Positions 9,771-58,640 of a DNA stretch of 64,000 nt are shown piece by piece. The stretch is from Cephalotus follicularis (Eukaryota > Streptophyta > Magnoliopsida > Oxalidales > Cephalotaceae). A program made the translations under genes and the position numbers. The notes under the pieces were generated by a model. That model worked only from the letters and a program-made list of their open reading frames with translations, did not search any database and was not told where the DNA came from. Numbering within the stretch: position 1 is the first letter of the stretch; each line of letters begins with the position of its first letter. The stretch covers positions 62,001 through 126,000 of the forward strand of contig BDDD01001502.1 of assembly GCA_001972305.1 (NCBI GenBank), given 5' to 3'.

Positions 9771-10046
9771 GTGCCATATCTCAGACATATTAGACTAGGG
9801 TCATACATATGTTATACAATGCCATCTCCCCATTCCTTGATGCCTTAGCAGAGAATGGAAGTGATTATCTCATTACAGCTCAATTATACTGAGCAAGGTC
9901 TGAGACCCTTTAGGTCTTTTGACCATAAGGTCTTTTAGAAAGCCTGGTATCATTGAGATTGAAACCCATGGGATTTAAGGATCGACACTATCGCGCTAGG
10001 CGTTGATGCTTCAACTACTTGTAACACGTAAGGCATTCACGCTTTA

Positions 10047-13000
10047 TGTCACGCCCCGAACTGCGAGACTAAACCCCCACGATCCGACGCGTGAAATACC
10101 AATCCGTTCAGTCATTCATCATTATATTCGTCATACTCCATAAGTGCTATATATAAAAGCCTTTAAACAATCAAACAACATCAGCGGAATACTCAATTCA
10201 GATAAAAACTAACTCTTAAAATCTCCCGAAAAACGGGCATGATGTATTCGTTTATCGGACTTAACCCCCTGTAAAGAAAAACACATTTTTATATATTCAC
10301 ACTCCCGAAGGAGGAATCGACAGTTTATATACATATGGGGCTCAACCCTCAGCAATCACAACCTAACTCATTATTACATCATTCTAATGCCTCAAATGAT
10401 GGGCCTGTCCCTGTTTAATACATGAACACATATATCATAAGCACTGCCACATGTCGGCATGTCGATAGCTAAAATAAAACATATCTCTTATATATCTTTA
10501 GATCTGTCTCTTTACATAACAAGTCTTATATATCGATACAGTTCAACTACAAACATAAGGCCCCTTTTCATACAACTCTTTATAAACAAACTCATATCCA
10601 TTACCATAAGTAAGATCATATACAATATGGCAAACCAAAATATATGCTATAGAGAATCTGTCATCCTAGCCTGTCTCATTTAATACAATTCATATAAGTA
10701 AATCCATAATATGATCATAACGAAGGCATATACAATAACAATACAATCCCAACACCACTACTATTCAAGATCCACCTTAGGTATCCATCCATCTCGATCC
10801 ATTTTACTGTGATCCATCACCTGTGTCTGAGCCTGACCCATTCCGCACACAGGGGAAATGGATCACCGACATAATGTCGTGTAGGATATACTATGTGCCA
10901 TGTATGCAATAGTTATAACAATATGCAATGTATGCATCAATACAATAGTGTGACAGTGTAACGGTTTGCCGTGTAACGGTACTGTGACAGTACAATACAG
11001 TAACAGTACCGTACAGTGCTCAGTGAACAGCAACGGTGTACAATAACAGTGGAAGTAACAGTGCAATGCAGTATATCAGTGTACAGTTGTGGACAGCTTC
11101 GATATACCAACCGTCCCTAAGCGGGGTATATCTAGCTAGTCCTAATCACATCCAAGGCCATAGGCCTGCAGACACTCAGCAAAACAGTCAGTAACAGTAC
11201 ATGGGAACAAACAGTTGTAGGGTCAAGTACTTCTCTGCCACTCTGCCCCGAGATAGTACCTCCATCGACTAAACACAACCCTCCCGTGTTATAGTCGTAT
11301 GGAGCGTAGGATAACACTGGCCATGAAAATAGTACAGTAGCGCTAGACCCGAAGGTGCCAGCCAGTAACAGTAACAGTAATGCTAGACCCGAAGGGTACT
11401 AGCCAGTAACAATAACAATAGAGCTATCAGTAACAGTAACAGTATCAGTGACAGTAACTGTATCCATCCCTCAGGCGGTGACTCCCGTAGGTCACAAAAA
11501 AAGGAGGATTGACAGTGGTGTGTGGCCAAACACCCATAATACTTCATGACGAAAATGAAGATTATGAATGGGATATCTCGAACAGTCTCAACAATAACAG
11601 TAAATAGTAATCATACAGTAGTCGCACCCAGTAACGGTAACAATAATAGTAAAAAGTGGAAATGATAGGGACCTAAAGGACCGATGTGATCCACATCCGT
11701 CAAAACAGTTGTAAAACAGTTTTCAGTACAGTTTCAATACAGTATCAGTAACAGTTCAGTAATAGTTGGTTGGTCCCTATCGAGTTTGTAAAAGAATTGA
11801 GAGGAAGTCCAATGAGATCATCTGCGTCCAAATGTCCCAAAGGAGCTATCCTAACAATTCTGGAAAATCGTTTGTATGAAAACTCTTTTGTTGCACTTTC
11901 TTCAAGAATCACTTTGAAAACTCGATTCAAAGCTCTAAAAGTGTTAGAAGATGATTCACATAGGATACAAGGCCTTAGGGAGGCTTCCTAAGGAATCAAT
12001 TTAAAAGAGAAACAGTTTGAATTTGAAAACAGCGAGAAACAGTGTCATTTCGCAAAATAGGGCACTAAGCGTCGACTAGTTTAGTTTAAAAGCGTAAAGT
12101 TTCGACTATTCAATTTAACACACAAAAGAGTCGACGGTTTTAGAAAGCATAAGTATGAAACATCGACTACTCAGTTTAAAAGCATGAAAACGTCGAAGGG
12201 TCAGTTTTGGAAGCAGTAAGGTGTCGACGGTTTTATCAGAAACAACGGTTCGCAAGTAGTTCGTAAATCAATGGAACTAAGTCCAAAGTCCATGAAATTG
12301 GTTTCAATCTCAGTGAAAACAGTTTATAGATCCACACCCAGTTCCCAGTCAGTGCAATAACCAGTAAACAGTAGCAGTTTCAATAATAGTATAACAATTA
12401 ATCAATCAACATGCAGTAACAGTATCACAGTAACAATTCACACAATTCATTGAAATGCATGAATGCAGTGCAAATAGTATAACCTACCAGTTGAAGCAGT
12501 AGCAACAATTGCGCTTGCTATTTAAGGGATTATGTAGCGGAACTGACGAACCGTCAGCTCCTCCAAGCTTGAACTGGCTATCGAATCACCATCGCTTAGA
12601 AACCTCCTATCCTTGATCACTTCATTCACCCTGCATATACAACACGTTTCCGTTACACTCTACGCACGGAAACCAAGCACAGCCGCCATCGGAGCTTCGG
12701 CCAGTTCTCGGCCACTCACATAGCTCCAACCACACCCATAAACAGACTCCACATTGGTCGATCAATTCATATCCGTTGGAGACTCAGCGCCGACCGTCGT
12801 GTCGTAGGTGGCGGCGAGTCAACTCACTGAGTCAACTCGCCTGTCATCCACGATTTCAGTCACCACCCAAAAATGCCACACAATCATCAGTTATAGGCGT
12901 CACAGTCAGAGACTCGCCGAGACTCGGCAAGGAATCGACAGTCACGGCCGGCAGTGAGTTCGACTCACTGAGTCGACTCGCCGGACTTCAACAGTTACGA

Positions 13001-15656: not shown

Positions 15657-16341
15657 AGATGTCACGCCCCAAATCGCGAGAGTAAACCCCCACGATCCGA
15701 TGCGTGAAATACCAATTCGTTCAGTCATTCATCATTATATTCGTCATACTCCATAAGTGCTATATATAAAAGCCTTTAAACAATCAAACAACATCAACGG
15801 AATACTCAATTCAGATAAAAACTAACTCTTAAAATCTCCCGAAAATCGAGAATGATGTATTCGTTTATAGGACTTAACCCCCTGTAAAGAAAAACACATT
15901 TTTATATATTCACACTCCCGAAGGAGGAATCAACCGTTTATATACATATGGGGCTCAGCCCTCAGTAATCACAACCTAACACATTATTACATCATTCTAA
16001 TGCATCAAATGATGGGCCTGTCCCTGTTTAATACATCAACACATATATCATAAGCACTGCCACATGTCGGCAAGTCGATAGCTGAAATAAAACATATGTC
16101 TTATATATCTTTAGCTCTGTCTCTTTACATAACAAGTCTTATATGTCGGTACAGTTCAACTAAAAACATAAGGCCCCTTTTCATACAACTCTTTATAAGC
16201 AAACTCATATCCAATACCATAAGTAAGATCATATACAATATGGCAAACCAAAATATATGCTATAGAGAATCCGTCATCCCAGCCTGTCTCATTTAATACA
16301 ATTCATATAAGTAAATCCATAATATGATCATAACGAAGCCA

Positions 16342-18309
16342 TATACATTAACAATACAATCCCAACACCACTACTATTCAAGATCCAGCTTAGGCATCCA
16401 TCCATCTCAATCCATTTTACTGTGATCCATCACCTGTGTTTAAGCCTGACCCATTCCGCACACAGGGGAAATGGATCAGCGACATAATGTCGTGTAGGAT
16501 ATACTATGTGCCATGTATGCAACAGTTATAACAATATGCAATGTATGCATCAATACAGTAGTGTGACAGTACAATACATTGACAGTAACAATACAGTAAC
16601 AGTACCGTACAGTGCTCAGTGCACAGTAACGGTGTACAATAACAGTGGTAGTAACAGTGCAATGCAGTATATCAGTGTACAGTTGTGGACAGCTTAGATA
16701 TACCAACCGTCCCTAAGCGAGGTATATCTAGCTAGTCCTAATCACATCCAAGGCCATAGGCCTGCAGACACTCTGTAAACAGTCAGTAACAGTACATGGG
16801 AACAAACACTTGTAGGGTCAAGTACTTCTCTGCCACTCCAGCCCGAGATAGTACCCCCATCGACTAAACACAACCCTCCAGTGTTATAGTCGTATGGAGC
16901 ATAGGATAACACTGGCCAAGAAAATAGTACAGTAGCGCTAGACCCGAAGGTACCAGCCAATAACAGTAACAGTAATGCTAGACCCGAAGGGTGCTAGCCA
17001 GTAACAGTAATGCTAGACCCGAAGGGTACTAGCCAGTAACAGTAACAGAAGAGCTCTCAGTAACAGTAACAATATCAGTGACAGTAACTGTATCCAACCC
17101 TCAGGCGGTGACTCCCGTAGGTCACAAAAAAAGGAGGATTGACAGTGATGTGTGGCCAAACACCCATAATACTTCATGACAGAAATGAAGATTTTGAATG
17201 GGTTATCCCGTACAGTCTCAACAATAACAGTAAACAGTAATCATACTGTAGTCGCACCCAGTAACGGTAACAGTAACAGTAAACAGTAGAAATGATAGGG
17301 ACCTAAAGGACCGATGTGATCCACATATACATTAACAATACAATCCCAACACCACTACTATTCAAGATCCAGCTTAGGCATCCATCCATCTCAATCCATT
17401 TTACTGTGATCCATCACCTGTGTTTAAGCCTGACCCATTCCGCACACAGGGGAAATGGATCAGCGACATAATGTCGTGTAGGATATACTATGTGCCATGT
17501 ATGCAACAGTTATAACAATATGCAATGTATGCATCAATACAGTAGTGTGACAGTACAATACATTGACAGTAACAATACAGTAACAGTACCGTACAGTGCT
17601 CAGTGCACAGTAACGGTGTACAATAACAGTGGTAGTAACAGTGCAATGCAGTATATCAGTGTACAGTTGTGGACAGCTTAGATATACCAACCGTCCCTAA
17701 GCGAGGTATATCTAGCTAGTCCTAATCACATCCAAGGCCATAGGCCTGCAGACACTCTGTAAACAGTCAGTAACAGTACATGGGAACAAACACTTGTAGG
17801 GTCAAGTACTTCTCTGCCACTCCAGCCCGAGATAGTACCCCCATCGACTAAACACAACCCTCCAGTGTTATAGTCGTATGGAGCATAGGATAACACTGGC
17901 CAAGAAAATAGTACAGTAGCGCTAGACCCGAAGGTACCAGCCAATAACAGTAACAGTAATGCTAGACCCGAAGGGTGCTAGCCAGTAACAGTAATGCTAG
18001 ACCCGAAGGGTACTAGCCAGTAACAGTAACAGAAGAGCTCTCAGTAACAGTAACAATATCAGTGACAGTAACTGTATCCAACCCTCAGGCGGTGACTCCC
18101 GTAGGTCACAAAAAAAGGAGGATTGACAGTGATGTGTGGCCAAACACCCATAATACTTCATGACAGAAATGAAGATTTTGAATGGGTTATCCCGTACAGT
18201 CTCAACAATAACAGTAAACAGTAATCATACTGTAGTCGCACCCAGTAACGGTAACAGTAACAGTAAACAGTAGAAATGATAGGGACCTAAAGGACCGATG
18301 TGATCCAAA
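16342..18309 (-). repeat. 984-bp tandem duplication in the D 5' LTR
   Basis: Unit one is about 16342-17325 and unit two about 17326-18309. They look identical by eye, including identical ORFs at an offset of 984. The join reads GTGATCCACATATACATTAAC, with a short CCA overlap between the two ends. The 3' LTR has one unit only, with several differences. Confidence 0.9.
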
Positions 18310-19350
18310 TCCGTCAATACAGTTGTAAAACAGTTTTCAGTACAGTTTCAATACAGTATCAGTAACAGTTCAGTAACAGTTGGTTGGCCCCTATCGAGTT
18401 TGTAAAACAATGGAGAGGAAGTCCAATGAGATCATCTGCGTCCAAATGTCCCAAAGGAGCTATCCTAACCATTCTGGAAAATCGTTTGTTTAAAAAGTCT
18501 TTTGTTGCACTTTCTTCAAGAATCACTTTCAAAACTTGATTCAAAGCTCTAACAGTGTTAGAAGATGATTCACATAGGATACAAGGCCTTAGGGAGGCTT
18601 CCTATGGAATCAATTTAAAAGAGAAACAGTTTGAATTTGAAAACAGTGAGAAACAGTGTCATTTCGCAAAACAGGGCACTATGCGTCGACTAGTTTAGTT
18701 TAAAAGAGTAAAGTGTTGACTATTCAGTTTAACACACAAAAGAGTCGACAGTTTAAGAAAGCATAAGTATGAAACATCGACTACTCAGTTTAAAAGCATG
18801 AAAACATCGACGGGTCAGTTTTGAAAGCAGTAAGGTGTCAACGGTTTTATCAGAAACAAAGGTTCACAAGTAGTTCGTAAATCAATGGAACTAAGTCCAA
18901 AATCTATGAAATCGGTTTCAATCTCAGTGAAAACAGTTTATAGATCCACACCAAGTTCCCAGTCGTTGTGATAACCAGTAAAAAGTAGCAGTTTCAATAA
19001 TAGTATAACAATTAATCAATCAACATGCAGTAACAGTATCACAGTAACAATTCACACAATTCATTGAAATGCATGAATGCAGTGCAAATAGTATAACCTA
19101 CCAGTTAAAGCAGTAACAACAGTTGCACTTGCTATTTAAGGGATTCTGTAGCAGAACCAACGAACCGTCAGCTCCTCCAATCTTGAACCGGCTATCGAAT
19201 CACCATCACTTGGAAACCTCCTATCCTTGATCACTTCATTCACCCTGCATATACAACACGTTTCCTATATATACACATATATGCAAGAACCTCAATTCCT
19301 CATCCTCCTCCTCCATAAAATCTTATGAAACTTTGAAAACACACAAGATC

Positions 19351-25017: not shown

Positions 25018-27317
25018 CGTAAAACCCCACACATGGAGAACAAACAAGTGGCATTACTCTCAATCCAACATACAACACAATGGTCGGGACTAGCAATATA
25101 AAAATGTGAAAAAACTAAAAACTTCACAATAAACCATCACTGTGATACAATCATTCTTTCATATCAATCTCTTCAATACTGGCTCTGTCAAGTCGTGACC
25201 ATCATACGATGACAATGAATCTTCAATCCTTCTGTCCGTTACCACTTGCTGCCCTACCTATGCCGTACACAAAAATGCACAACACAGCCCCACCCTAAAG
25301 GATGGGGTTAGCCACAAGGCTAGCCAGAAACCCCATGCAGCGTGTATGCATGTACAATGTGTAATATCTGTGACCGTCTATACAATATCAACGTGAAGTA
25401 TACAATATCAATGCATGATATGGTAAATGCATGCATACGATTGGCGATCTACTATCCATATGACACTGGCCCATAACATCGCATATGGATAGGATCTGTA
25501 ACAATCAATCAATGACAGACACTCAGTGGTGGTGTAAAAAACACCCAATCAATCAATCATATCCTATAGAGCATGAGACCTTAGGTCAATAAAATGTCAA
25601 TCATTAATCCCACGGAAGGTAGTCCTCGAAAAAGGTGGGAGATCTATCTACTTTCCTTAGACTGATCAGGTCTGGGACTCGTAGATCTTCCAGCCTACGG
25701 CTGGGTCAATACAGTATCGATGAGCATTAACCATGGGGGAGCTTCTACCGTCCAGGAGCTACGGCCCTCTGGGTCCATCAATCATTAGTCGGTAACAGCA
25801 CTGATCGTCAGCAGGTCAATACAATAAATAACACGATTGACAAAATAGGTGGACAAAGTCGACAGCCTAACATGCTGATGCAAGTCATAAAGTTGCTCTA
25901 TAGGATCCATACAATACAATCAATCTGTCTATACAATACCTATAAGTGGTTATATCTAATGGAGAAATGGGAATGTGCTTCCAACATTCCGAACTTAGAT
26001 TCACGACACTTATGGCTCAATCAATCAATAACCAATAGACGGTGACAATCAAATTAACGAGATAGGAAGGAACATCTATCTGGTCAAAGGAAGTCATTGG
26101 GTCGTCGCCTATGGCTCAATCTATCAATTTATCAATATATGTCAATTCAATCAATAAAAACCATGGAAAACTGTGTTTCAAATGCTTGAATACCTCAAGC
26201 GAGGCTCCGGTCAAGCGGCAATGTGAAAAGAAGTTGAAAACTAGCTTTAAAACATCAATTTTCCAAAACGGGGCGTTAGGCATCAATGCTATGGATATAC
26301 GCATCGACGCTTAACATTTACTTTCAACAGTAAGTTGATGGGCATCAACGCTCTTACAGAAGGTGTCGACGCACATCACATTTCTATAAACCAGTAGGTT
26401 TAGGCGTTGACATCCTTGGATCAAGGCGTTGACGCGTAAATAGAAACGTCGACACTGAGATGGCCTATATGATTTACATTGATGTCTTACCTGGGAGAAA
26501 GAAATCCAAAGTCGTACGCGTCAACACCAAGAATACGCGTTGACACTAACGTAAGATGAAACCTTAGTAAAATAGTTCAAAAGCTCAAGGCATTGACGGC
26601 AATGGGCTAGGCATCGACGTCTGTGCTGGGAAAAACTAGTTTTTTAGCAGAAAATGTTGTCGATCTCAGGTCAAATTCAAATTTAAAGAAATTCTTTGAA
26701 AACTAATGGTTAAAATCACTCCTTTAAGGTTCGCAAAACTTGTTACAACCTTCAATTTACAGTTCACATCTTCCTAGATCAGTTAGATCAAGGAATCAAT
26801 CAATCAATCAGTCTAGTAGTAGGGAAATCAATACAATATAATCACTCAATCATTAAATTCAATCAATCAATCAGTCTAGTAGTAGGCAAATCAAGTAGAG
26901 AAATCCTACCTATAATTGGAGCTTCAACAGCTGAGCTTCCAATCAATCAATGGCTGGAAACATCCAAGAACCCGCGGTTTTCTTGTTCAATCGACAAAGA
27001 GGAGACTTGAAATTGCTATTCACTACTGGTGTGGCAAATCTGGAGCTGCTGGAGGAAGAGAAGGGCTGCTCGGATGGGAGAGAGAGAGAAGGATAGAGAG
27101 AGAAGGAGAAGAATGGAGAAAATGAGAGAATGAGGGAAAATGGTTAAGGAGTTGGCTTACTATGCATGCATATTATCAATACCATAAGCAATAGGTATAA
27201 GAATACCTCAATTAAATCATCTATCAATACCCAATACAGTTAAATACAATCTAATACAGTACAATGTGTATGCATGAACAGTGTTAAGAAGAATAAAAGG
27301 GAATTTGGGTCGTTACA
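25018..27317 (-). repeat. E 3' LTR (2300 bp)
   Basis: It starts CGTAAAACCCC and ends GGGTCGTTACA. It aligns through with the right LTR, including the motif cluster at 26280-26620. Near 27152-27165 it lacks about 50 bp that hold the TATA box in the other copy. This LTR gives the empty site for the MULE-like insertion (ACTTCACAATAAACC near 25123). Confidence 0.88.
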
Positions 27318-27334
27318 TTCTCCCCTCCTTAAAA
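27318..27334 (-). other. Polypurine tract of E
   Basis: The minus strand reads TTTTAAGGAGGGGAGAA immediately before TGTAACGACCC. Confidence 0.88.
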
Positions 27335-27539
27335 CAATCTGGTCCCCAGATTCATCAGTCGATCGATCAATAAAATAGAAAGGGATATTTTTCTCTCATA
27401 TCATCCTCGCGCTCCCAGGTGTGCTCCACTGAACCATGATACTGCCATAGAACACTAACCAAGGGAATGGTCTTGTTCGTCAATACTATGATCTGTCTGT
27501 CAACAATCTGTATAGGAGTCCCAAAAAAGATAAGTCAGG

Positions 27540-27840
27540 TTATAGCTGAATCTGACTGTACTCAATGATGTGTGAGGGATCTCTAACATATTTCCTCAAC
27601 TGAGAAACATGGAACACCTCATGAACTCCCGACAAGGTTAGAGGCAAAGCAAGCCTATACACAAGTCGACCAATCAGATCCAATACCTCGAAAGGTCCAA
27701 TAAAACGGGGAGAAAGCTTCCCTTTCCTCCCAAATCTCACGACTCCTTTAGTGGGTGACACTTTGAGAAAAACATGGTCACCAACAATGAACTCCAAGCC
27801 TCTACGATGAACATCAGCATAGCTTTTCTATCTTTTATGT
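27540..27840 (-). pseudogene. E: integrase C-terminal domain
   Basis: It reads GLEFIVGDHVFLKVSPTKG, VRFGRKGKLSPRFIGPFEV, GRLVYRLALPLTLSGVHEV and FHVSQLRKYVRDPSHI, the C-terminal part of gypsy integrase. About 85 codons are open. Further C-terminal sequence towards 27340 is broken and I cannot read a chromodomain there. Confidence 0.85.
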
Positions 27841-28059
27841 GCTATAATCAATCGGTCTTTAATCAATTTCACTTTCTCTGAGGTAATCAGTACTATCTTT
27901 GGTCCCAAAATGCTCCTCTCACCAACCTGATCCCAATAAACCGGTGATCAGCACTTCCTACCATATAGGGCCTCATAAGAAGCCATATGTATGCTCTCGT
28001 GAAAACTATTGTTCTAGGAGAACTCAATCAAATGTAGGTAGTCATCCCAATTACCTCCA

Positions 28060-28650
28060 AAGTCGAGAATGCATGCTCAAAGTATGTCCTCCAAAGTCTG
28101 AATGGTCCTTTTAGATAATCCGTCTGACCGGGGATGAGAAGCAGTGCTGAAACTAAATTATGTACCTATAGCTGCCTGTAACTTCCTCCAAAAACCGGAA
28201 GTGAAGCGAGAGTATCGATCCGAAACAATGCTAACAGGAGCTCCATATGCTTTAACAATCTCTTTTATGAAAAATCTGGACAACATTTCTCTGGAATAAG
28301 TCATCCGAATCAGTAGAAAATGGGCCGATTTCGTAAGTCGATCAACCACAACCCAAATAGCATCATGTCTGTCACGAGTTAGAGGTAGGCCGGACACGAA
28401 ATCCATGGTAATATGCTCCCATTTCCACTCTGGAATGAGTAGAGGCTGAAGCAAACCTGTCGGTCTCTGGTGTTCCGCCTGGACTTGCTGACAAGTGAGG
28501 CATCTCGATACAAACTCTGCGATCTCTCTCTTCATGCTAATCCACCAATAGCTAAGTTTCGGGTCATGGTACATCTTCGTACTCCCAGGATGGATGGAGA
28601 TATGACATTTATGAGCTTAAAAAAGAAGCTCCTCCTTTAACTCACTATTG
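28060..28650 (-). pseudogene. E: integrase zinc-binding and catalytic core
   Basis: An open stretch (28158-28574) reads the end of the zinc-binding domain (CLTCQQVQAEHQRP), then WKWEHITMDFVSGLPLT, AIWVVVDRLTKSAHF with the first catalytic Asp kept, and VSIVSDRYSRFTS with the second kept. After a frame change it reads SDGLSKRTIQTLED. The codon at 28110-28112 is AAA (Lys) where the third catalytic residue, Glu, is expected. Element A has the same change. Confidence 0.88.
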
Positions 28651-28798
28651 GCTGGAATGCGAATCCTGTTCCTGTATCTCAATAACCCATCTGAAGAAAG
28701 AGAGAAATTGGGTTTCAAACCCCCGTCTATAGCAGCGCCACTTTCTGTAATTCCATGTCCAACCTCTGAGCATCTATAATATGATCAAACAATGAAGG

Positions 28799-29205
28799 TC
28801 ACACATGAATATAAGAAAGTGTCATACAGGATAGCTTGCGACTCAATGCATCTGCGACGACATTTGCCTTTCCTGGATGATATTCAATGTTGCAATCATA
28901 ATCATTAAGATGTTCAAACCACCTTCTTTGCCTAATGTTCAATTCCTTATGTGAAAAGAGATATCTCAAACTCCTGTGATCCATGAAGACTGTAAACTTG
29001 TTCCCATAAAGGAAGTGGGGCAATTTCCCAAGAGCAAAGACAATGGCCGCCAACTAGAAGTCATGCACTAGGTAGTTTTCTTCATGTGGTTTGATCTTTC
29101 TTGATGCATATACTATTACTTTACCATATTGCATAAGGACGCAACCAAGACCTTTCCCAGAAGCATCGGTATACACCACAAAGTCCTTGTTCCAGTCTGG
29201 CAATG
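28799..29205 (-). pseudogene. E: RNase H domain
   Basis: The minus strand reads [39 protein letters not shown], a TAG, then [34 protein letters not shown] and [16 protein letters not shown]. Active-site Asp positions (YTDASG, MDH, VADAL) are kept. One stop splits the domain. Confidence 0.88.
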
Positions 29206-30000
29206 TTAGGACAGAAAGGAAACCAATCTATTCTTTAACTCTTGAAAACTCCTTTCACAATCACTATCCCATATAAAAGCAGCATTCTTATGTGTCAATC
29301 TAGTCAAAGGTGCAGCAATTCGGGCAAATCCCTGCACAAACAGACGATAATACCCTGCTAAACCCAAGAAGCTACAGATCTCAGAAGCATTCATCGGTTG
29401 TTTCCAATCTTTCGCGGCCTCATCCTTTGACAGATCCACTGATAAACAGTCACCAGAAACAATATGCCCAAGAAAAGCAACCTCCAATAACAAAAATTTG
29501 CACTTGTCGAATTTGGCATACAATCGATGATCTCTCAATGTTCGCAATACAATGTAGAGGTGATAGGCATGCTCCTCATCGGTCCTGGAATAGACCAAGA
29601 GGTTGTCAATGAAAACCACAATAAACTGATCCAAATACTGTCTGAAGACTTGTTTCATAAGGTCCGTCAAAGCTGTGGGAGCATTAGTTACACCAAAAGG
29701 CAAAAAAAGAAACTCATAATGACCATATCGTGATATGAAAGAAGTCTTATGAATATCCACTTGTCTGACTTTCAGCTGGTTGTAGCCCGATCTCAAGTCG
29801 AGCTTAGAAAACAATGTCGCTTCTCTAAGCTGATAAAAAAACTCATCAATATGCAGTAGAAGGTACTTGTTCTTCACTGTAACTTTTTTGAGCTGATGAT
29901 AGTCAATACACATTAAGAGCGATCCATCCTTCTTCTTGAAAAAAAGAATAGGTGCTCCCTAGGGTGAAGCACTAGGTCTTATGAAACCTTTGTCTATAAG
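29206..30000 (-). pseudogene. E: reverse transcriptase, longest open stretch
   Basis: An open frame of 235 codons (29913-29206) plus upstream [17 protein letters not shown] covers most of the RT fingers, palm and connection. Motifs are [39 protein letters not shown], the catalytic box, AKFDKCKF and [16 protein letters not shown]. The catalytic box reads FIDN (29602-29613) in place of FIDD, so one metal-binding Asp is lost. The stop before GAPIL is TAG where relatives have Trp. Confidence 0.9.
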
Positions 30001-30057
30001 ATTCTGTAGCTGTATCTTTAACTCCTTCAATTCTATAGGTGCCATTCGGTACGGTGC

Positions 30058-30660
30058 TCAAGAAATCGGTGCAGTCCCTAGTATCAAATCAATTAAAAAT
30101 TCTATCTCTCTATCAGGCGGCAACGAAGTCAAATCCCGAGGAAAAACATATCCAAATTCGAAAACCACCGGAATATCTTCCAGTTCTGGTCGCCATCTAT
30201 ATGTATCCAGAACATGTGCCAGAAACCCCTGGCATCCCTCTCTCAACAATCTGTCCGCATGCAAAGCCGAAATCATTGGAACAATTGATGGCTCCAAGGT
30301 GCCAAGGAATAGAAAAGGTAGTCGTCCCGGAGGACTGAAAACCACCACTTTTCGATAACAATCCACCTGAGCAAAACTAGCAGACAACCAATCCATGCCA
30401 AGAATCACATCTAGGCTATCCATAGGAAGAACAATAAGATAGGCTAACAAGCTAAGATCATCAATTTCTATAACACAATCTCTACACACTGGATCGGTAG
30501 TCGCTGACTCACGGAGAGGTGTGGATACCTCCATCAAGAAAGGAAGGTATTAGTGTCTCAAACCAACATGGGAGACAAAAAGCAATGCAATGAATGAATG
30601 GGATGAACCCGGATCAATAAGAACCCGTGCTGGAAGCTGAAAGAGTCGAATGGTACCTCC
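30058..30660 (-). pseudogene. E: protease and linker to RT
   Basis: The active site reads LPARVLIDPGSSHSFIA near 30600-30650, followed by a TAA. The open frame from 30537 reads DVILGMDWLSASFAQVDCY, HADRLLREGCQGFLAHV and FPRDLTSLPPDREIEF. This is the aspartic protease and the linker seen in gypsy polyproteins. The active-site triplet is D-P-G. Confidence 0.82.
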
Positions 30661-30779
30661 GATCACTATGTCAGACCCTGATACAGCACTTGGTTCCATG
30701 GAAAAAACTGTAGCCTGAACTATTGAAGTAGAACTCGTAGGCTATTTCCCTCTGCACTGCGAAGTCCCACGAGAAGAAG

Positions 30780-31971
30780 ACGGTGCACTATCAATCAATC
30801 TCTATGGAGGCGGTGACCACTGTGTCTGATCCAATCCTCCATAAAGGGAACTCCGAGGACAATCTCTAGCAATGTGGTTGGAACAACCCCAAGCCAAGAA
30901 TGGCCCAAAAACTGCCTACAATTTTCAGAAGTGTGGTTGGTCTTCTGAGAATGTATACAAGGAACCAAGGCACTATGATTACCGGTCCCAGAAAATCTAG
31001 AGGGTGTACTCTGACTGGGCACTGAAGATCGGCATCCTCAATGTGCGTTCCTTGATCTGCCTCTCCCCCGAGAACGGGACTGGTTCCCCTCTATCCTGAC
31101 TGCTACCTTGAGAACCAGGAGAGGGGATACTGTCATTTTTTTTGCGATTTAGCACTGCCGCTGTCACTACCACTCTGCCAAGCGGAAGGAGTAGGCCTGG
31201 TGCGGGCTCTAACTCTCATTTGTGTAGCCTCCTCTGCAATATCCTCAATTTGCATAGCTTGGGAAGAAATATCTGATATGGAGGAGAATCCCAAAGGAGT
31301 CAATTGTCTGCTCAAATCCAATTTCAGTCCCGTAACGAAATTCTTTGCTCTACGCTCTTGGCCTTCTACTAAGTATGGGGCATATCAGGCTAATTGCATA
31401 AATCTCGCCTCGTACTCAGCAACTGTCATTTTCCCCTATACCAAGTTAACAAATACAATCTCTCTTCTGTCTTCCTCTACCTGAGGGCAGTACCTTGCAT
31501 AGAATTCTCTCTTGAAGGCATCCCAAGAGCGGACTGTACCATTTCTCGTCCAATCTATGTTTACCATAGCCCACCAGTGTTCAGCTTCCCCTTGGAGCAT
31601 ATACATTGCCAATACCAATTTATGTTCATCATCACATCCCATTGCCTCAAAAATTGTTTCCAATTGGGTTAGCCAAGACTCAGCGAGGGTAGGATAGGAA
31701 GTCCGACGAATGCTGGAGGCTACAACTTAAGGAAGCGGCCCAACATGTCTTCCCTCCTTGGTCTACGTTCCACTTCAGCATGTTGGCGTCCAATCAGAGT
31801 ATGCATCTGTTCCATAGTGGCACACAATTGTCTCCAAACCTCGAGGTTAGCCTCGGCTGGTGGAGCATTAGGATCATACTCTAGAAAAACATTACCATTA
31901 ACCGGTTCATTATCAATAGGGGCAGGGGCATTCCTTCCACCCCTACGTCCATGCCTTCCTCTATTGTTCAT
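30780..31971 (-). pseudogene. gag: E: gag polyprotein, broken
   Basis: The probable start is MNNRGRHGRRGG at 31971. Blocks in order are an acidic stretch with EYDPNAPPAEANLEV, QMHTLIGRQHAEVERR, then after frame changes MGCDDEHKLVLAMYMLQG, EAEHWWAMV and FKREFYARYCPQVEED (31663-31436), and MDLSRQLTPLGFSSISDI. Near 30950 is a zinc-knuckle remnant, CIHSQKTNHTSENC, with Ser in place of its second Cys. At least three frame breaks separate the pieces. It is related to gag of D but not a recent copy of it. Confidence 0.82.
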
Positions 31972-32143
31972 CGCTATAAGAAGACAACAATGGGATGATC
32001 AGATGCAATATCTTTCAATTCCAATACCAATAATTATTCCAAATAAACAATAGCATGAATAGGCAATAACATATATCATGTAAATCCATTCAGTCAATAT
32101 CAATCAACGCAATAGTATACTTCGCTAACAGGCCAACCAATGT

Positions 32144-32154
32144 ATCTGATACCA
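32144..32154 (-). other. Primer-binding site of E
   Basis: The minus strand reads TGGTATCAGAT a few bases after the 5' LTR end, matching the initiator tRNA-Met type site. Confidence 0.85.
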
Positions 32155-32266
32155 TTCCATAACACCCCGCGCCTGGAGGATGGACACGTGGCATTACTCT
32201 CAATCCAATATACAATACAATGGTCGGGACTACCAATATAAAAATGTGAAATAACTACAAACTTTA

Positions 32267-33242
32267 GGGACAATTACAAATGCCTCCCTAAGGTATCACT
32301 CCACAACTTTTTCCTCCCTCTATTTTAAGATACTACAAAAACCTCCCTGGGGTATTAATCTATCCAAAAAAAAATTCTAATTCTTAACATTTTTAAAAAA
32401 ATAACTAAAATACCTCTAATCTTATAATCACTTAATATACCTATGAAACTCTTCTTCCATTATTTCGCTCACATCTATCTAACCTCTCAGTGGCCATTTC
32501 CACCGTTGAACCATCACCACCCATAAGTGGGCATGCCACCACCAGTGGTGCTGGGGGTGACCTTGATAAGGTGCAGTGTGTTGTTTGTACGACAAGCAAC
32601 AACACAACTGTAGCCAAGGTTTTCAACCGAATTGACCATAAATTCGATCTCATGTACACCAAGCGGGCATTTGTCCATTGGCATGCTGGTGAAGGCATGG
32701 AGGAAGGTGAATTCTCTGAAGCACGTGAGGATCTTTCTTATACTTTACAACAACTTCCATTTGCAAGTTAAATACCCATATTTGATTCTAAAGTCTAAAC
32801 ATTATTGGTGATCGAAACTAAAGCAATAGCATAACCAATGTCAATCTCTTCTAACATTTTTTCACTTCAGCCTCAAGATGGTTTACTAATCCCATCTAGG
32901 GATGGGTACGGCAAGGCGGGGGCAAATTTCGCCTATCCTACCTCTCCTAAGACTGTAGTGGTGGCATGGTCACTGGTAGGTGGTGATGGTTTGATGGTGG
33001 CAAGGATAGTTAGATGTGGGAGAAATAATGGAGGAAGGGTTTAATAAATTTATTAAGTGATTATAAGGTTAGGGTATTTTGGGTATTTTTTTAAAAAATA
33101 TTAACAGTTGACCAACTAAGACTAATTATTGAACTTTTTTATTGGATACATTAATACCTCAGGGAGGTTTTTGTAGTATCTTAAAATAGAGGTAGGAAAC
33201 AGTTGTGGAGTGATACCTCAGAGAGGTATTTGTAATTGTCCC
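32267..33242 (+). mobile_element. MULE-like non-autonomous DNA transposon with long inverted repeats
   Basis: The ends are long, imperfect inverted repeats of roughly 270 bp. The left end reads GGGACAATTACAAATGCCTC and the right end, reverse complemented, reads GGGACAATTACAAATACCTC. Similarity continues past ACTCCACAACT, TTTTAAGATACTAC, CTTATAATCACTTAATA and the blocks CCATTATTTC and CACATCTA, to CCATGCCACCAC. Flanks are CAAACTTTA and AAAAATTTA, a possible 9-bp target duplication with two changes. Long inverted repeats and a 9-bp duplication fit Mutator-like elements. No transposase is present. The interior carries an alpha-tubulin fragment. Confidence 0.8.
32490..32771 (+). pseudogene. Captured alpha-tubulin fragment in a chimeric 93-codon ORF
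   Basis: Codons at 32553-32735 read [40 protein letters not shown] and [21 protein letters not shown]. This is the conserved C-terminal block of alpha-tubulin, where the usual sequence has [13 protein letters not shown]. Sixty-one codons are in frame with no stop. The first 21 codons (from 32490) come from the transposon inverted repeat and the last ten are unrelated to tubulin. Similarity stops at EDL, just where the normal protein goes on towards its acidic tail. It lacks the GTPase part, so no tubulin function is possible. I infer capture from a host gene, as in Pack-MULEs. Confidence 0.88.
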
Positions 33243-35343
33243 AAAAATTTACAATAAACCATAATTATGATACAATCATTCTTTAATAAGATACAGTGCG
33301 ATGCTTTACAATGATAGTCTTTTACAATACGATGCCAGTCATTTCAATACAATACAATTATCAATCTCTTCAATACAATTTTTCAATACCAACTCTGTCC
33401 AGTCCTAACGATCATACGATCATTATGAATTTCAATCCTTCTGTCCGCTACCACCTGCTGCTCTACCTATGCCGCACACTAAAGTGCACAACACAGCCGC
33501 ACCCCGAAGGATGGGGTTAGCCCCAAGGCTAAGCAGAAACCCCACGCAGCGTTTATGCATGTACAATGTGTAATATCTACGACAGTCTATACAATATCAA
33601 CATGCGGTGTACAATATCAATACATGATATGGTAAATACATGCATACAATTGGCGATCAACTATCCATATGACACTGGCCCATAACAGCGCATATGGATA
33701 GGATATGTAACCATCAATCAATGGCAGACACTCAGTGGTGGTGTATAAAACACCCAATCAATCAATCATATCCTATAGAGCATGCGACCTCGGGTAAATA
33801 AAATGTCAATCAATGGCAATGATCAATCCCACGGAAGGTAGTCCTCGAAAAAGGTGGGAGATCTATTTACTTGTCTTAGGCTGATCAGGTCTGGGACTCG
33901 TAGATCTTCCAGCCTACGGCTGGGTCAATACAGTATCGTGAGCATCAACCATGGGGGAGCTTCTATGGTCCAGAAGCTACAGCCATCCGGGTGCATCAAT
34001 CATCAGTCAGTAACAGTACTGATCGTCAGCAGATCAATACAATAAAAGACACGATCGACAAAATAGGTGGACAAAGTCGACAGCCTAAGATGCCGATACG
34101 AGTCATAAAGTCTCTCTATAGGATCCATAAAATACAATCAATCTGTCTATACAATGCCAATAAGTAGTGATATCTAATGGAGAAATGGGAATGTGCGTCC
34201 AACGTTCCGAACTTAGATTCATGACACTTATGGCTCAATAAATAACCAATAGACGGTGACAATCAAATTAACGAGATAGGAAGGAACATCTATCTGGTCA
34301 AAGGAAGTCATTGGGTCATCGCCTATGGCAAAATGTATCACTTTATCAATATATATCAATTCAATCATTAAAAACCATGGAAAAATGTGTTTCAAACGCT
34401 ACAATACCTCAAGTGAGGCTCAGGTCAAGCGGCAATGTGAAAAGAAGTTGAAAACTAGCTTTAAAACATCAATTTTCCAAAATAGGGCGTTAGGCGTCAA
34501 CGCTATGGATATACGCTTCGGTGCTTAAAATTTACTTTCAATAGGAAGCCGATGGGCATCGACACGCATCACATTATTAAAAGCCAGTAGGTTTAGGAGT
34601 TGACATCCTTGGATCAAAACGTTGATGCGTAAACCGAAAAGGTCGACACTGAGATGGCTTATATGATTTACGTTTACGTCTTACCTTGGAGAAAGAAATC
34701 CCAAGTCGTACACGTCAACACCAAGGATACGCATTTACGCTAACATCAGATAAAAACTCAGCAAAACAGTTCAAAAGCTCAAGGCATTGACACCAATGGG
34801 CTAGGCGTCAACGTCTGTGCTGGGAAAAACCAGTTTTTCAGCAGAAAATGTAGCCGATCTCAGGTCAAATTCCAATTTAAAGCAATTATTTTAAAACCAA
34901 GGGTCAAAATCACTCCTTTAAGGTTAGTAAAACATGTTACAACCTTCAATTTACAGTTCCAATCTCCCTAGATCAGTTAGATCAAAGAATCAATTTAAAA
35001 ACCCTTATAACAAAATTCAATACAATACAATCACTCAATCATTAAATTCAATCAATCAGTCTAGCAGTAGGCAAATCAAGTAGAGAAATCATACCTATAA
35101 TTGGAGCTTGACTAGCGGAGCTTCCAAACAATCAATGGCTGGAAACGTCCAAGAACCCGTTGTTTTCTTGTTCAAGCAACAAAGAGGAGACTTACAATTG
35201 CTATTCACTGCTGTTGTGGCAAATCCGGAGCTACTGGAGGAAGAGAAGGGCTACTTGGCTGGGAGAGAGGGAGAGAAGGATAGAGAGAGAAGGAAAAGAA
35301 TGGAGAAAATGAGAGAATGGGGGAAAATGGCTAAGGAGTTGGC

Positions 35344-35352
35344 TTATATAGT
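35344..35352 (-). promoter_or_regulatory. TATA box of the E 5' LTR
   Basis: The minus strand reads ACTATATAA, about 200 bp inside the LTR start at 35551. The segment holding it is deleted in the 3' LTR. Confidence 0.5.
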
Positions 35353-35556
35353 CAATACGGCCAAAGTTCCGAAACTCATCCCAAATCTCCCGACTATGCA
35401 TTCATATTATGAATACCATAAGCAATAGGTATAAGAATACCTCAGTTCAATCATCTGTCAATACCCAATACAGTTTAATACAATCCAATACAGTACAATG
35501 TATATGCATGAACAATGCTAAACAGCACAAAAGGGAATTCGGGTCGTTACAAGGAG

Positions 35557-35901: not shown

Positions 35902-38900
35902 TGTAACACCCCCGATTCGGAACCAGAATCACTCCCGATTCGGGATCGGTGTGTCACACAAAACTGAACTAAAAACATATCAAAGATCTTAATCTTGATC
36001 ATCATCAATACGTGGTGGTTCCAAAAATCTGAAAACATGTATAATCATGAAACATAAACTCAATCTGAAACATAATCTGAAAACTATCATAAATCAAAAA
36101 TCACAATACTATTTAGATAACTGCCCTATACACGACCATATCACTACTAAAAACATAACTGGATCGAACTCCTAGATGATCCTCTGACATAGGATAACTC
36201 TCTCATCACACTTGCCCAAGCTGTCCCTGAAAACCTGCCACATGGAAACAAAAAAACGGCTGAGCAAACCTCAGTACGGATATAGAATCATAAAACAGTT
36301 TACGAACAGCTTATGAAACAAATCAATTATGAAACAACATAAATACGAATCAAAACAGAACGGTTTACGAAACAAAATAGAACAGTTACGAGTCATAACA
36401 GATCAGTTACGAATCATAACAGAACGAAACAAAACTGTGTCCAAAACAAAACAGTTTACCAAAACGAAATAGTATCCGAAACAAAATAATATCATGCTCG
36501 ATACAGTATTTGAAACAAACACAATACGATACAAAACATTTTATGAAACAATACACTTTACGAAACAGAAAAGAACAGTTTACGAAACAAAAGAAAACAG
36601 TTTCTGAACAGTATGAAACAAACAGATTACGGAACAAAACAAAGCAGTAAACGATAAACGATAATTTTAAAGCAGTAAGATTTCAAAGTTAACTCAAACC
36701 AGAAATCTTAAGCAATAAATTAGTTTAAACATTCTTTGAAGTCACATATGAATTTTCATAAAAACCAAATCCATAACTTTCAAAACATACACGAAACCTT
36801 TCAAAACATAAGTTCCATAACTTGAAACCATAAAGTATACATTTGCAAAACATAGGTTCCATAACTTTCAAAACATACACGAAAGCTTTCAAAACATAAG
36901 TTCCATAACTTGAAACCATAAAGTATACATTTCCAAAACATAGGTTCCATAACTGAGTACTAAAACCCATAACATATCAGAAACACATAGTAGCAAGGGA
37001 GTAGCTAATTCCACATTGCCAAATAGAATTGCAGTGCACGGCACTACACATACAATTCCCATATCCCAAAACATATCCCAAAACATATAACTAGGATCGA
37101 TCCATACGCCTCTATCCCAAATCCTATCTAAGGATATCCCTGAGAGACGCCGTAAACAAATCACACTGTTACGGAAAGTGTCATGCCCCCGTGCTAGGCT
37201 CACATCATGCCTATGGTACCCCCATAGGTGGTTATAAAAACTCAGTATATCACCATTTCAAAAAATATGATTTCATCAAATCATTTCAAACGCATAGAAA
37301 AGTTTTCCAAAACATAATCATAGATCGTTCTCAGACGATTTAAACACATGCTTTCATAATCGAAAAATCAACTCATTTAATTTCACAATAAAGAGATGAT
37401 TGCATAACGTTTCGTAAACCATCATAACCGAATTCATAAAGTCAGAAATATTACCTCATAAAATATCAAGTGACTTTATTTTCAAAATCCAAATATAACG
37501 AAGTTCATAAACCAAAAGGGAACATATTCATAAAACCGAATAACCCAAAACAAAGAATCTGTATTTATTCTCAAAACAGATCGAAACAGTAAGAGTGTGT
37601 CAAGAATCGAAAATCCATACATTTTCCCAAAAACATATAACTGATTCATTTTTATAAAATCACCAGAGTATATCAAGGAACGAAGATTCGTACTTCATTT
37701 ACTAAACAAAACCGAATGATCACCAAAACGAAGAATTCGTATTTTGAAAACGGGAACTAAATTTATTAAAACCCAAACAGCAGATGATAATCGAAGACCA
37801 AGAAATCCGTACTTTTTTTTTTAACATATTCCAAGTTCATTTCAATAAAATCGGAGGATAATGACCCAAAAACGAAGGAATCCGAACGTTTTCACAATCA
37901 GAAATCAACTCATTTTAATTCACCATAAAAGAGATGATCGCATAGCATTTCATAAACAAATCATGAATGAGCATATATAAAGTCAGAACATTTAATTTCG
38001 TAAGAATGTCAAAACTGACTTTAGTTCCAGAACGTGCAAAACCCGAAACATAACAAAGTTCATAAAATCCAAAGGAACATACTTATAAAACCGGGTTTAT
38101 TTCAAATAAATTTGATAGCCCAAGAACGACAAAATCCGTACTTCCAAAATAGAAACTGAATTTATTACGATCAAATCAGAAAGATAGCCAAAGAACGAAA
38201 GCATCCGTACATTAAAACATAACCAAGTCTATAAAACGAGATCATAGAATAAAACTGATTTTAGTTTGATAACTAGATAGCCAAGGAACGATAGAAATCC
38301 GTACCTCATGCGATCACTAAAACAACCTCAAGAATATATATCGAGACTTCTCTAGACCGCTCATCGGTTGTTGCAAATATCTAACAGAAATAAAATCGTT
38401 CTCATAAGGACTTGAAATAAAATCAGACCTCGTAAACCATCATAACCGAATTCATAAAGTCAGAAATATTACCTCATAAAATATCAAGTGACTTTATTTT
38501 CAAAATCCAAATATAACGAAGTTCATAAACCAAAAGGGAACATATTCATAAAACCGAATAACCCAAAACAAAGAATCTGTATTTATTCTCAAGACAGATC
38601 GAAACAGTAAAAGTGTGTCAAGAATCGAAAATCCATACATTTTCACAAAAACATATAAATGATTCATTTTTATAAAATCACCAGAGTATATCAAGGAACG
38701 AAGATTCGTACTTCATTTACTAAACAAAACCGAATGATAACCAAAACGAAGAATTCGTATTTTGAAAACGGGAACTAAATTTATTAAAACCCAAACAGCA
38801 GATGATAATCCAAGACGAAGAAATCCGTACTTTTTTTTTTAACATATTCCAAGTTCATTTCAATAAAATCGGAGGATAATGACCCAAAAATGAAGGAATC

Positions 38901-40481
38901 CGAACGTTTTCACAATCAGAAATCAACTCATTTTAATTCACCATAAAAAAGATGATCGCATAACATTTCATAAACAAATCATGAATGAGCATATATAAAG
39001 TCAGACCGTTTAATTTCGTAAGAATGTCAAAACTGACTTTAGTTCCAGGACGTGCAAAACCCGAAACATAACAAAGTTCATAAAATCCAAAGGAACATAC
39101 TTATAAATCTGGGTTTATTTCAAATAAATTTGATAGCCCAGGAACGACAAAATCCGTACTTCCAAAACAGAAACTGAATTTATTACGATCAAATCAGAAA
39201 GATAGCCAAAGAACGAAAGCATCCGTACATTAAAACATAACCAAGTCTATAAAACGAGATCATAGAATAAAACTGATTTTAGTTTGATAACCAGATAGCC
39301 AAGGAACGATAGAAATCCGTACCTCATGCGATCACCAAAACAACCTCAAGAATATATATCGAGACTTCTCTAGACCGCTCATCGGTTGTTGCAAATATCT
39401 AACAGAAATAAAATCGTTCTCATAAGGACTTGAAATAAAATCAAACCTCGACTCATGGGTCATTGTACACTAATCATGGCCATATAAGATAACAATAGGT
39501 TTCATACATCCAATTCGCAGAAGTCTCATCTAAGCATATTTTCGAATTCGCTAAGGTAAGTCCAATTTGTCTAATTCGTCCAATTTCGAATCATAATACT
39601 AGTTCAGCTCATAATATCTTAAAACGATTACAGAAATACATAATTGAATCGAAAACAGAATTTAACGGAATAGGTTCAGAGTTTACCGAAAGCAGTCAAA
39701 ACAGAGCACAGAGCCATAATCACATCGCGAAAACAGAGCGGATCACACGTATGCAGAAAACGGAGTCGGAAAATTGTCCGAAAACATGTCGCCGGAAACA
39801 GCCGCACGTGGGCCCACGCGCCGCCGATGGCCGGCGTGTGTCTGTCACGCGTCACCGGTCAGACACCAAAAGGGGCCGATCTAGAGCGTTTGAGGCCGGG
39901 GATCACACATCCAGGGCGCGTTTTCCATGAAACCGTCGCGTTTGGCCGGAACAGACGCCTTTGACCGCAGTTGGACTTTGCGCCGATCTACTTTTCCGGC
40001 GTCGCCAAGGGTCGAGGCTGGTCAGGTTCGCTTCCTCTCGTCGCGAGGATGCTGAATATGTGATTGTCTTATTGTGACGATCACCGGAGAGGGGGAATCG
40101 ACGCCAAACAGATTGGGGAAGAGAAGACGTCGCGCACGCCGGTGGGGACATGGGCCGGTGCAGGGGTTGGGTGCGGTGGACTCAGGACGTCATGGGGGTT
40201 CGACCGGTGCCTTCACCGGCGCCATATCGGCACCAACGCTGGCGACAGCGGGTGAGAGGGGAGAGAGAACGGGAGAGAGAGGATGGGTGGCCGGGAGAGA
40301 GAGAGAGAGTGGGAGAGAAATAATTTTTAATACAAAATAGGGTTTCTTTTGTTTTACAATGCTGAAATGGTTTTAACACAAAAATAAAAATCCAACAAAT
40401 TGTTTTATTTATTCATGGACTTAATATCAAAACCCACTAGGCTAAGGCGAAAACCCGCTTAGCCTAGCCAAAAGCAAAACA
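35902..40481 (-). repeat. G 3' LTR with a 1018-bp tandem duplication, end truncated
   Basis: It matches the LTR at 42030-45599 and lacks the last 102 bp. Units 37413-38430 and 38431-39448 are tandem copies present only once in the other LTR. Near 36779-36955 a block with AACATAGGTTCCATAAC is repeated twice, shared by both LTRs. A GC-rich segment (39780-40330) ends in a GA-run. The many 60-100 codon ORFs reflect AT-rich or GC-rich bias. Confidence 0.88.
37413..39448 (-). repeat. 1018-bp tandem duplication in the G 3' LTR
   Basis: Both units begin CGTAAACCATCATAACCG. The join lies at ACCTCGTAAACC, with a TCG overlap shared by the two breakpoints. The units differ by a few substitutions, so the duplication is older than the one in D. 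Confidence 0.88.
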
Positions 40482-42029: not shown

Positions 42030-45000
42030 TGTAACAACCCCGATTCGGAACCGGGATCACTCCCGATTCGGGATCGGTGTGTCACACAAAACTGAACTAA
42101 AAACATATCAAAGATCTTAATCTTGATCATCATCAATACGTGGTGGTTCTAAAAATTTGAAAACATGTATAATCATGAAACATAAACTGAATCTGAAACA
42201 TAATCTGAAAATTGTCATAAATCAAAAATCACAATACTGTTTAGATAACTGGCCTATACACGACCATATAACTGCTAAAAACATAACCGGATCGAACTCC
42301 TAGATGATCCTCTGACATAGGGTAACTCTCTCATCACACTTGCCCAAGCTGTCCCTGAAAACCTGCTGCATGGAAACAAAAATGCGGCTGAGCAAACCTC
42401 AGTACGGATATAGAATCATAAAACAGTTTACGAACAGCTTATGAAACAAATCAATTACGAAACAACATAAATACGAATCAAAATAGATACGAATCAAAAC
42501 AGAACGGTTTACAAAACAAAACAGAACAGTTAGGAATCATAACAGGTCAGTTACGAATCATAACAGAACGAAACAAAACTGTGTCCGAAACAAAACAGTT
42601 TACCAAAACGAAACAGTATCCGAAACAAAACAATATCATCCTCGATACAGTATCTGAAACAAACACAATACGATACAAAACATTTTATGAAACAATACAC
42701 TTTACGAAACAGAAAAGAACAGTTTACGGAACAAAAGAAAACAGTTTCTGAGCAGTACGAAACAAACAGATTACAGAACAAAACAAAGCACTAAACGATA
42801 AACGATAATTTTAAAGCATTAAGATTTCAAAGTTAACTCAAAACAAAAATCTTAAGCAATAAATTAGTTTAAACATTCTTTGAAGTCACATATGAATTTT
42901 CATAAAAACCAAATCCATAACTTTCAAAACATACACGAAACCTTTCAAAACATAAGTTCCATAACTTGAAACCATAAAGTATACATTTCCAAAACATAGG
43001 TTCCATAACTTTCAAAACATACACGAAAGCTTTCAAAATATAAGTTCCATAACTTGAAACCATAAAGTATACATTTCCAAAGCATAGGTTCCATAACTGA
43101 GCACCAAAACCCATAACATATCAGAAACACATAGTAGCAAGGGAGTAGCTAATTCCACATTGCCAAATAGAATTGCAGTGTACGACACTACACATACAAT
43201 TCCCATATCCCAAAACATATAACTAGGATGGATCCATACGCCTCTATCCCAAATCCTATCTAAGGATATCCCTGAGAGACGCAGTAAACAAATCACACTG
43301 TTACAGAAAGTGTCATGCCCCCGTGCCAGGCTCACAGCATGCCTATGGTACCCCCATAGGTGGTTATAAAAACTCAGTATATCACCATTTCAAAAATTAT
43401 GATTTCATCAAATCATTTCAAACGCATAGAAAAGTTTCCCAAAATATAACCATAGATCGTTCTCAAACGATTTAAACACATGCTTTCATAATCGGAAAAT
43501 CAACTCATTTAATTTCACAATAAAGAGATGATTGCATAACGTTTCGTAAACCATCATAACCGAATTAATAAAGTCAGAAATATTACCTCATAAAATATCA
43601 AGTGACTTTATTTTCAAAATCAAAATATAACGAAGTTCTTAAACCAAAAGGGAACATATTCCTAAAACAGAATAACCCAAAACAAAGAATCTATATTTAT
43701 TCTCAAAACAGATCGAATCAGTAAGAATGTGTCAAGAATCAAAAATCCATACATTTTCACAAAAACATATAACTGATTCATTTTTATAAAATCACCAGAG
43801 TATATCAAGGAACGAAGATCCGTACTTCATTTACTAAACAAAACCGAATGATAACCAAAACGAAGAATTCGTATATTCAAAACGGGAACTAAATTTATTA
43901 AAACCCAAACAGCAGATGATAATCCAAGACGAAGAAATCCGAACTTTTTTTTTTAACATATTCCAAGTTCATTTCAATAAAATCGGAGGATAATGACCCA
44001 AAAACGAAGGAATCCGAACGTTTTCACAATCATAAATCAACTCATTTTAATTCACCATAAAAGAGATGATCGCATAGCATTTCATCAACAAATAATGAAT
44101 GAGCATATATAAAGTCAGAACATTTAATTTCGTAAGAATGTCAAAACCGACTTTAGTTCCAGAACGTGTAAAAACCCGAAACATAACAAAGTTCATAAAA
44201 TCCAAAGGAACATACTTATAAAACTGGGTTTATCTCAAATAAATTGGATAGCCCAAGAACGACAAAATCCATACTTCCAATACAGAAACTGAATTTATTA
44301 CGATCAAATCAGAAAGATAGCCAAAGAACGAAAGCATCCGTACATTAAAACATAACCAAGTCTATAAAACGAGATCATAGAATAATACTGATTTTAGTTT
44401 GATAACCAGATAGCAAAGGAACGATAGAAATCCGTACCTCATACGATCACCAAAACAACCTCAAGAATATATATTGAGACTTCTCTAGACCGCTCATCGG
44501 TTGTTGCAAATATCTAACAGAAATAAAATTGTTCTCATAAGGACTTGAAATAAAATCAGACCTCGACTCATGGGTCATTGTACACTAATTATGACCATAT
44601 AAGATGACAATAGGTTTCATACATCCAATTCACAGAAGTCTCATCTAAACATATTTTCGAATTCGCTAAGGTAAGTCCAATTTGTCTAATTCATCCAATT
44701 TCGAATCATAATACTAGTTCAGCTCATAATATCTTAAAACAATGACAGAAATACATGATTGAATCGAAAACAGAATTTAACGGAATAGGGTTCAGAGTTT
44801 ACCGAAAGCAGTCGAAACAGAGCACAGAGCCATAATCACATCGCGGAAACAGAGCGGATCACACGTATGCGGAGAACGAAGTCGCAAAACTGTCCGAAAA
44901 CATGTAACCAGAGACAGCCGCGCGTGGGCCCACGCGCCGCCGCTGGCCGGCGCGTGTCTGTCAAGCGTCGCCGGTCAGACACCAAAAGGGGCCGATCTGG

Positions 45001-45701
45001 AGCGTTTGAGGCCGGGGATCACACATCCAGGGCGCGTCTGCCATGAAACCGCCGCGTTTGGCTGGAACAGACGCCTTTGACCGCGTCTGGACTTTGCGCC
45101 GATCTGATTTTCCGGTGTCGCCAAGGGTCGAGGCTGGTCAGGTTCACTTGCTCTCATCCCCAGGATGCCGAATATGTGATTGTCTTATCGTGAAGATCAC
45201 CAAAGAGGGAGAATCAAAGCCAAACAGATGCGGGAAGAGAAGACATCGCGCACGACGGTGGGGACGTCGGCCGGTGCCGGGCTTGGGTGTGGTGGAATCA
45301 GGACGTCATGGGGGTTCGACCGGCGCCTTCGCCGGTGCCATAACTGCACCAACGCCAGTGACAAAGTGTGAGAGGGGAGAGAGAACGGGAGAGAGAGGGT
45401 GGGTGGCCGGGAGAGAGAGAGAGAGTGGGAGAGAAATAATTTTTAATACAAAATAGGGTTTCTTTTGTTTTTACAATGCTGAAATGGTTTTAGCACAAAA
45501 ATAAAAAGCCAAAAAAATTGTTTTATTTATTCATGGACGTAATATCAAAACCCACTAGGCTAAGGCCAAAATCCGCTTAGCCTAGCCAAAAGCAAAACAA
45601 ACCGAAAAATGGGCAGTCCACAAACCGAAAAAAAAATTGACAGCCCACACGAAAAAAATCGAAAAGCCCGAAAATTCTATACGAAAAAACGGGATATTAC
45701 A
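42030..45701 (-). repeat. G 5' LTR (3672 bp)
   Basis: This is a complete LTR from TGTAACAACCCC to GGGATATTACA. A GC-rich block (44880-45370) and GA-run (45375-45437) lie near the transcription-start side. Its ORFs correspond only loosely to those in the other LTR. Confidence 0.9.
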
Positions 45702-57949: not shown

Positions 57950-58640
57950 GCCTCTTAGCAGAAACTGAGGTATGGTTATATTGCCTTTGTGGCTGCAGCC
58001 TGGATGGCTGGTCTGATTAGCCTCTCGGCAGAGACCGAGGCATGGTTATATTGCCAGTGTGGCTAGTATTATTAGCCTCTCGGCAGAGATCGGGGTATGG
58101 TTATATTACCTGTGTTGCTGGTCTGTTTAGCCTCTTGGCATAAACCGATGTATGGTTGTTATGATTCCCTATGTGGCTACAGCCTTTGTGGCTGGTTTCA
58201 CCAGATACATCGCCTGTGTGGCTATTTTGCACCAGAGTGTGAAGGATGAAGATATTACACAGCCTGTATGGCTTCTCTGATATTATATGCACCTTGTGTG
58301 GCTGGTCTGACGATATGCAGCCTGTGTGGCTGGTCTGACAATATATAGCCTATGTGGCTAGTTAGAGGAGATACAGCCTGTTTGGCTACTCTGACGATAT
58401 TCAACCTGTGTGGCTGGTCTGACGATATATAGCCTATGTCGCTAGTTAGAGGAGATACAGCCTGTTTGGCTACTCTTACGATATTCAGCCTGTGTGGCTA
58501 GTCAAAAGAGATATTGCCTGTGCCACTAGTCAGAGGAGACACAGCCTGTATGGCTAGTATGGCGATATTCAGCCTGTGTGGCAAGTTTGAGGAAATGTAG
58601 CTCATGTGACTGGTCTGTTGATAAGCCGCCTGTGTGGCTA
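57950..58640 (+). repeat. ~28-30-bp minisatellite in the I 5' LTR
   Basis: About twenty diverged units contain CCTGTGTGGCTGGTCTGACGA, preceded by larger units with AGCCTCTCGGCAGAGA and ATGGTTATATTGCC. Units vary in length and sequence, so this is not a CRISPR array. Confidence 0.85.

Follow-up and report, generated by a model that had tools for sequence, protein, structure and literature searches.

What is the 976-bp stretch that interrupts one LTR of a retroelement in the Cephalotus follicularis genome, and does the piece of an alpha-tubulin gene that it carries belong to a new gene or to a dead copy? The locus was studied in a window of 64,000 nucleotides (contig BDDD01001502.1, positions 62,001 to 126,000), which is the whole stretch of DNA that was analysed and to which all coordinates below refer. 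Our analysis indicated, with a probability of about 85%, that the stretch is a non-autonomous Mutator-like DNA transposon of the Pack-MULE type, carrying a tubulin fragment that has decayed and is most likely untranslated.

Insertion into a Retroelement

The element extended from 32267 to 33242 (976 bp, no strand assigned), beginning with GGGACAATTAC... and ending with ...GTAATTGTCCC. It lay inside an LTR retroelement, here called retroelement E (25018..35551, minus strand), whose LTRs occupied 25018-27317 and 32158-35551, the latter containing the transposon. The retroelement was flanked by the 5-bp sequences AGGAT and AGGAG, a PBS-like site (TGGTATCAGA) adjoined its right LTR, and a polypurine tract adjoined its left LTR. 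A reverse-transcriptase frame was located at 29206-29958 on the minus strand, and the retroelement is probably Ty3-like. Given its minus-strand orientation, the right-hand LTR that received the transposon is the 5' LTR. Divergence of the LTR pair was K2P 0.109, calculated with the two LTR parts joined around the insertion.

The element was bordered by CAAACTTTA on the left (32258..32266, plus strand) and AAAAATTTA on the right (33243..33251, plus strand), which agreed at 7 of 9 positions and thus formed an imperfect 9-bp target duplication with two differences. When lengths from 2 to 12 were tried, 9 gave the best match, and agreement at 7 or more of 9 positions occurred at a rate of 0.002145 between random 9-mer pairs in 200,000 draws from the window. 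In the left LTR of retroelement E, the corresponding site, AAAACTTCA (25118..25126, plus strand), was present as one uninterrupted copy. The unoccupied site in the sister LTR shows that the retroelement came first and the transposon afterwards. The coordinates, the 976-bp insertion, the likely 9-bp duplication, the empty site near 25123 and an insertion later than the retroelement had all been proposed in an earlier note on this DNA, and each of these proposals held.

No further copy of the element was found within the window. Other repeats were observed there. At 16340-18310, two head-to-tail 984-bp copies were identical at 984 of 984 positions; they belong to a repeat whose partner at 10046-12651 contains just one copy, judged by the match pattern, and the duplication is either very recent or an assembly artefact. 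A second tandem duplication of about 1 kb, at 37412-39450, had a period of 1018 bp with 998 of 1018 positions identical; it lay in another repeat, whose partner at 42030-45602 likewise contains just one copy, judged by the match pattern. Dense tandem repeats with periods of 28, 55 and 84 bp occupied 58005-58645.

Terminal Inverted Repeats

The ends of the element aligned as terminal inverted repeats (TIRs) of 276 bp on the left (32267..32542, plus strand) and 285 bp on the right (32958..33242, minus strand), in keeping with the roughly 270 bp first estimated. Identity of the pair was 84.1% over 264 ungapped columns, corresponding to K2P 0.18, and 77.9% over 298 columns when gaps were counted. 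The window as a whole had a CpG observed/expected ratio of 0.69, compared with 0.32 in the left TIR and 0.0 in the right TIR; low CpG is usual for methylated repeats. The TIR pair was more divergent than the LTR pair (K2P 0.18 versus 0.109), and therefore the TIRs were probably already unequal when the element inserted, the alternative being that change was quicker at methylated sites. In young elements, TIRs are often near-identical (PMC3310237), and in this respect the divergence counts against the Pack-MULE reading.

A 22-bp motif was present twice near the right TIR end, at 33154-33175 and 33213-33234, 59 bp apart and 91% identical. This subterminal direct repeat might represent a doubled transposase-binding site. 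The TIR patterns gave 0 matches in viral and prokaryote contig collections, a result uninformative about plants, and a search of the literature for the letters of the TIR ends returned no plant-transposon title among the matches listed.

The Captured Tubulin Fragment

Between the TIRs, 61 stop-free codons (32553..32735, plus strand) matched residues 365-425 of alpha-tubulin by phmmer over their whole length, with a best E of 4.4e-27. The 61 uninterrupted codons of alpha-tubulin C-terminal sequence that had been claimed for the element are thus real. At E<=0.001, the fragment matched 153 distinct PDB sequences, and the best 60 of the 153 were all named tubulin. Pfam-A returned 0 families at E<=0.001 for the tubulin frame, whether it was queried as 93 or as 61 residues.

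Compared with chain 9e78_AA, 14 of the 61 residues differed, and 11 of these 14 changes fell where three printed tubulin alignments agree, although the first two of them do not differ from each other in this region and the three alignments thus represent two sequences. A part of the 14 differences may be ordinary between-species variation, since the comparison was made with solved tubulins, none of them from a plant, and not with an identified parent gene.

Beyond 32735, the tubulin frame read 11 further residues before a stop, and these do not fit what we take to be the continuation of tubulin. The remaining internal sequence, up to the right TIR, measured 222 bp (32736..32957, no strand assigned). 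On the other side, around the inner boundary of the left TIR, a stretch at 32536..32550 (plus strand) read PPPVV in another frame, resembling PPTVV, presumably the tubulin motif to the left of the joint. Among random 15-mers from the window, 11 of 100,000 reached at least four of the five residues of this motif, with the caveat that the TIR also accounts for the first part of the reading. PPPVV is only suggestive: it could be tubulin reached through a one-base frameshift, or chance combined with TIR sequence. Together with a possible CCACCA match at the left joint, it gives a weak hint that the tubulin part may begin a few codons earlier, with such a frameshift.

Probable Assignment to the Mutator Superfamily

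MULEs make target duplications of about 9 bp, and a duplication of that length flanked the element, matching at 7 of 9 positions and having one copy at the empty site. Long TIRs, typical of most MULEs (PMC3310237), were present at both ends. The alpha-tubulin piece placed a host gene fragment between them, as in Pack-MULEs, and the element had no transposase of its own, the longest of its ORFs being at most 93 aa (11 ORFs of at least 40 aa in 32000-33500). An ORF of 93 aa is too short for a MULE transposase; of the ORFs of the element, the Pfam scan covered the tubulin frame.

Membership in Mutator is read from the duplication length and the long TIRs, which are its whole basis. The element could instead be a long-TIR member of another DNA-transposon superfamily, for instance hAT or Merlin, since the ends by themselves leave the superfamily unsettled and the class assignment draws on no transposase. 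However, the duplication fitted 9 bp and not 8 bp (5 of 8 positions) or 5 bp (1 of 5), and the long TIRs that characterise most MULEs (PMC3310237) likewise argue against another superfamily, an origin that we consider improbable.

Pack-MULEs are non-autonomous MULEs containing genes or gene fragments (PMC3310237), and more than 3,000 have been counted in rice (PMC8903248, PMC13317346). The present element resembles those of rice, maize and tomato in its long TIRs, its size of about 1 kb, the host gene fragment between its TIRs and its non-autonomous nature. The tomato Pack-MULE PM-ZIBP-1 is 944 bp long, and tomato Pack-MULEs are commonest at 1000-1200 bp (PMC3310237). The difference is that the gene captured here is alpha-tubulin, and the likeness is one of structure, seen in one copy. 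Pack-TYPE transposons such as Pack-CACTA also combine a TIR element, a gene fragment and flanking target duplications, but CACTA elements make 5-bp and hAT elements 8-bp duplications (PMC8903248), whereas 9 bp was found here. The Pack-TIRs of PMC8277862 share the capture of a fragment inside a TIR element, but they are animal elements.

A tubulin-carrying MULE was not named in the titles and abstract openings of the open-licence PMC papers among the matches listed, a weak negative because a published table could name one, and the word tubulin was absent from the main text of PMC8903248. The element is an ordinary example of a well-known kind, a gene fragment in a long-TIR transposon.

Coding and Regulatory Potential

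The Pack-MULE type suggested in the earlier note agreed with the structure, namely the long TIRs, the 9-bp duplication and the host-gene fragment; the chimeric ORF beginning at a start codon was not supported. The tubulin fragment had been described as fused to a start codon and 20 TIR-derived residues. The tubulin frame was open from 32436 to 32768, 111 codons that span the TIR-tubulin joint, with an upstream stop at 32433 and its first in-frame ATG at 32652, which is within the tubulin part. Between that stop and the tubulin part, no ATG in frame with the captured exon was found; the ATG at 32533 belongs to a different frame. The start first proposed presumably corresponds to a GTG at 32490, which precedes 32553 by 21 codons. 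A chimeric protein with a start codon was therefore rejected, as the tubulin frame has no ATG ahead of the tubulin part.

A functional chimeric gene could still be imagined in which the fragment is translated from a spliced upstream exon or from a non-ATG start, giving a small tubulin-like peptide. The 111 open codons across the joint would allow it, and some rice Pack-MULEs are expressed as chimeric transcripts (PMC13317346). Against it stand the missing ATG before 32652, the alteration of 14 of 61 residues in a very conserved protein, and the location of the element within an LTR. The length of the frame also counts against it: 36 of the 7151 stop-to-stop frames in the window reached at least 112 codons, and a frame of 111 codons is thus not exceptional here. 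We consider such a gene very unlikely.

Selection read from the open frame was also rejected, as neutral decay would often leave the frame open too. When mutation was simulated free of constraint up to 8, 12 or 15 residue changes, 54-73% of copies remained stop-free (2000 runs for each of six settings), figures that are indicative only, as the present sequence and not the parent was mutated and indels were left out. Because so many neutral copies stay stop-free, openness of the frame is no evidence of selection.

A regulatory role, in which the element yields small RNAs that act on the alpha-tubulin parent gene, was weighed in the same way. One strand was predicted to fold very stably, at -448 kcal/mol where 20 shuffles averaged -238 (z -21), which speaks for such a role. 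However, the coordinates place the tubulin part between the TIR arms, and processing of the long hairpin would therefore give mainly TIR small RNAs; the region 32100-33400 gave no Rfam hit even at E values up to 1. A hairpin-derived small-RNA role for tubulin was rejected on the position of the fragment between the arms, and regulation of the parent gene by the element has very little probability. We give equally little credence to a wider scenario in which the element belongs to a family that has spread tubulin fragments, some of its copies being joined to host transcripts by splicing or producing small RNAs that act back on alpha-tubulin.

Proposed Origin and Significance

The Mutator-like, Pack-MULE-type element may have arisen from an ancestor with inverted repeats of about 280 bp that took up part of an alpha-tubulin gene between them. 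Capture would perhaps have occurred when repair synthesis switched templates at the left joint, where there is a possible short CCACCA match. Of the animal Pack-TIRs, 190 (67.6%) were reported to have microhomology at one breakpoint at least, to which the possible CCACCA match may be likened, and gap-filling models involving microhomology have been described; the same source considers such models worth exploring for plant Pack-MULEs (PMC8277862). Transposase supplied in trans could then have moved the element. It entered the 5' LTR of the probably Ty3-like retroelement and generated the 9-bp target duplication, the step that the flanks and the empty site record. Silencing of the inserted element may have followed. 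Decay after insertion would be reflected in the 14 of 61 residues that differ from solved tubulins and in the lack of an upstream ATG.

By this account, the tubulin piece most likely goes untranslated, a dead fragment rather than a new gene. The evidence for spread as a tubulin-carrying unit is this one insertion, present as one copy in the window. The locus is one clear instance of a long-TIR transposon with a gene fragment inside it, and the empty site establishes the order of events. It adds an example and not a principle, and would carry more weight only if the fragment were expressed or present in many copies.
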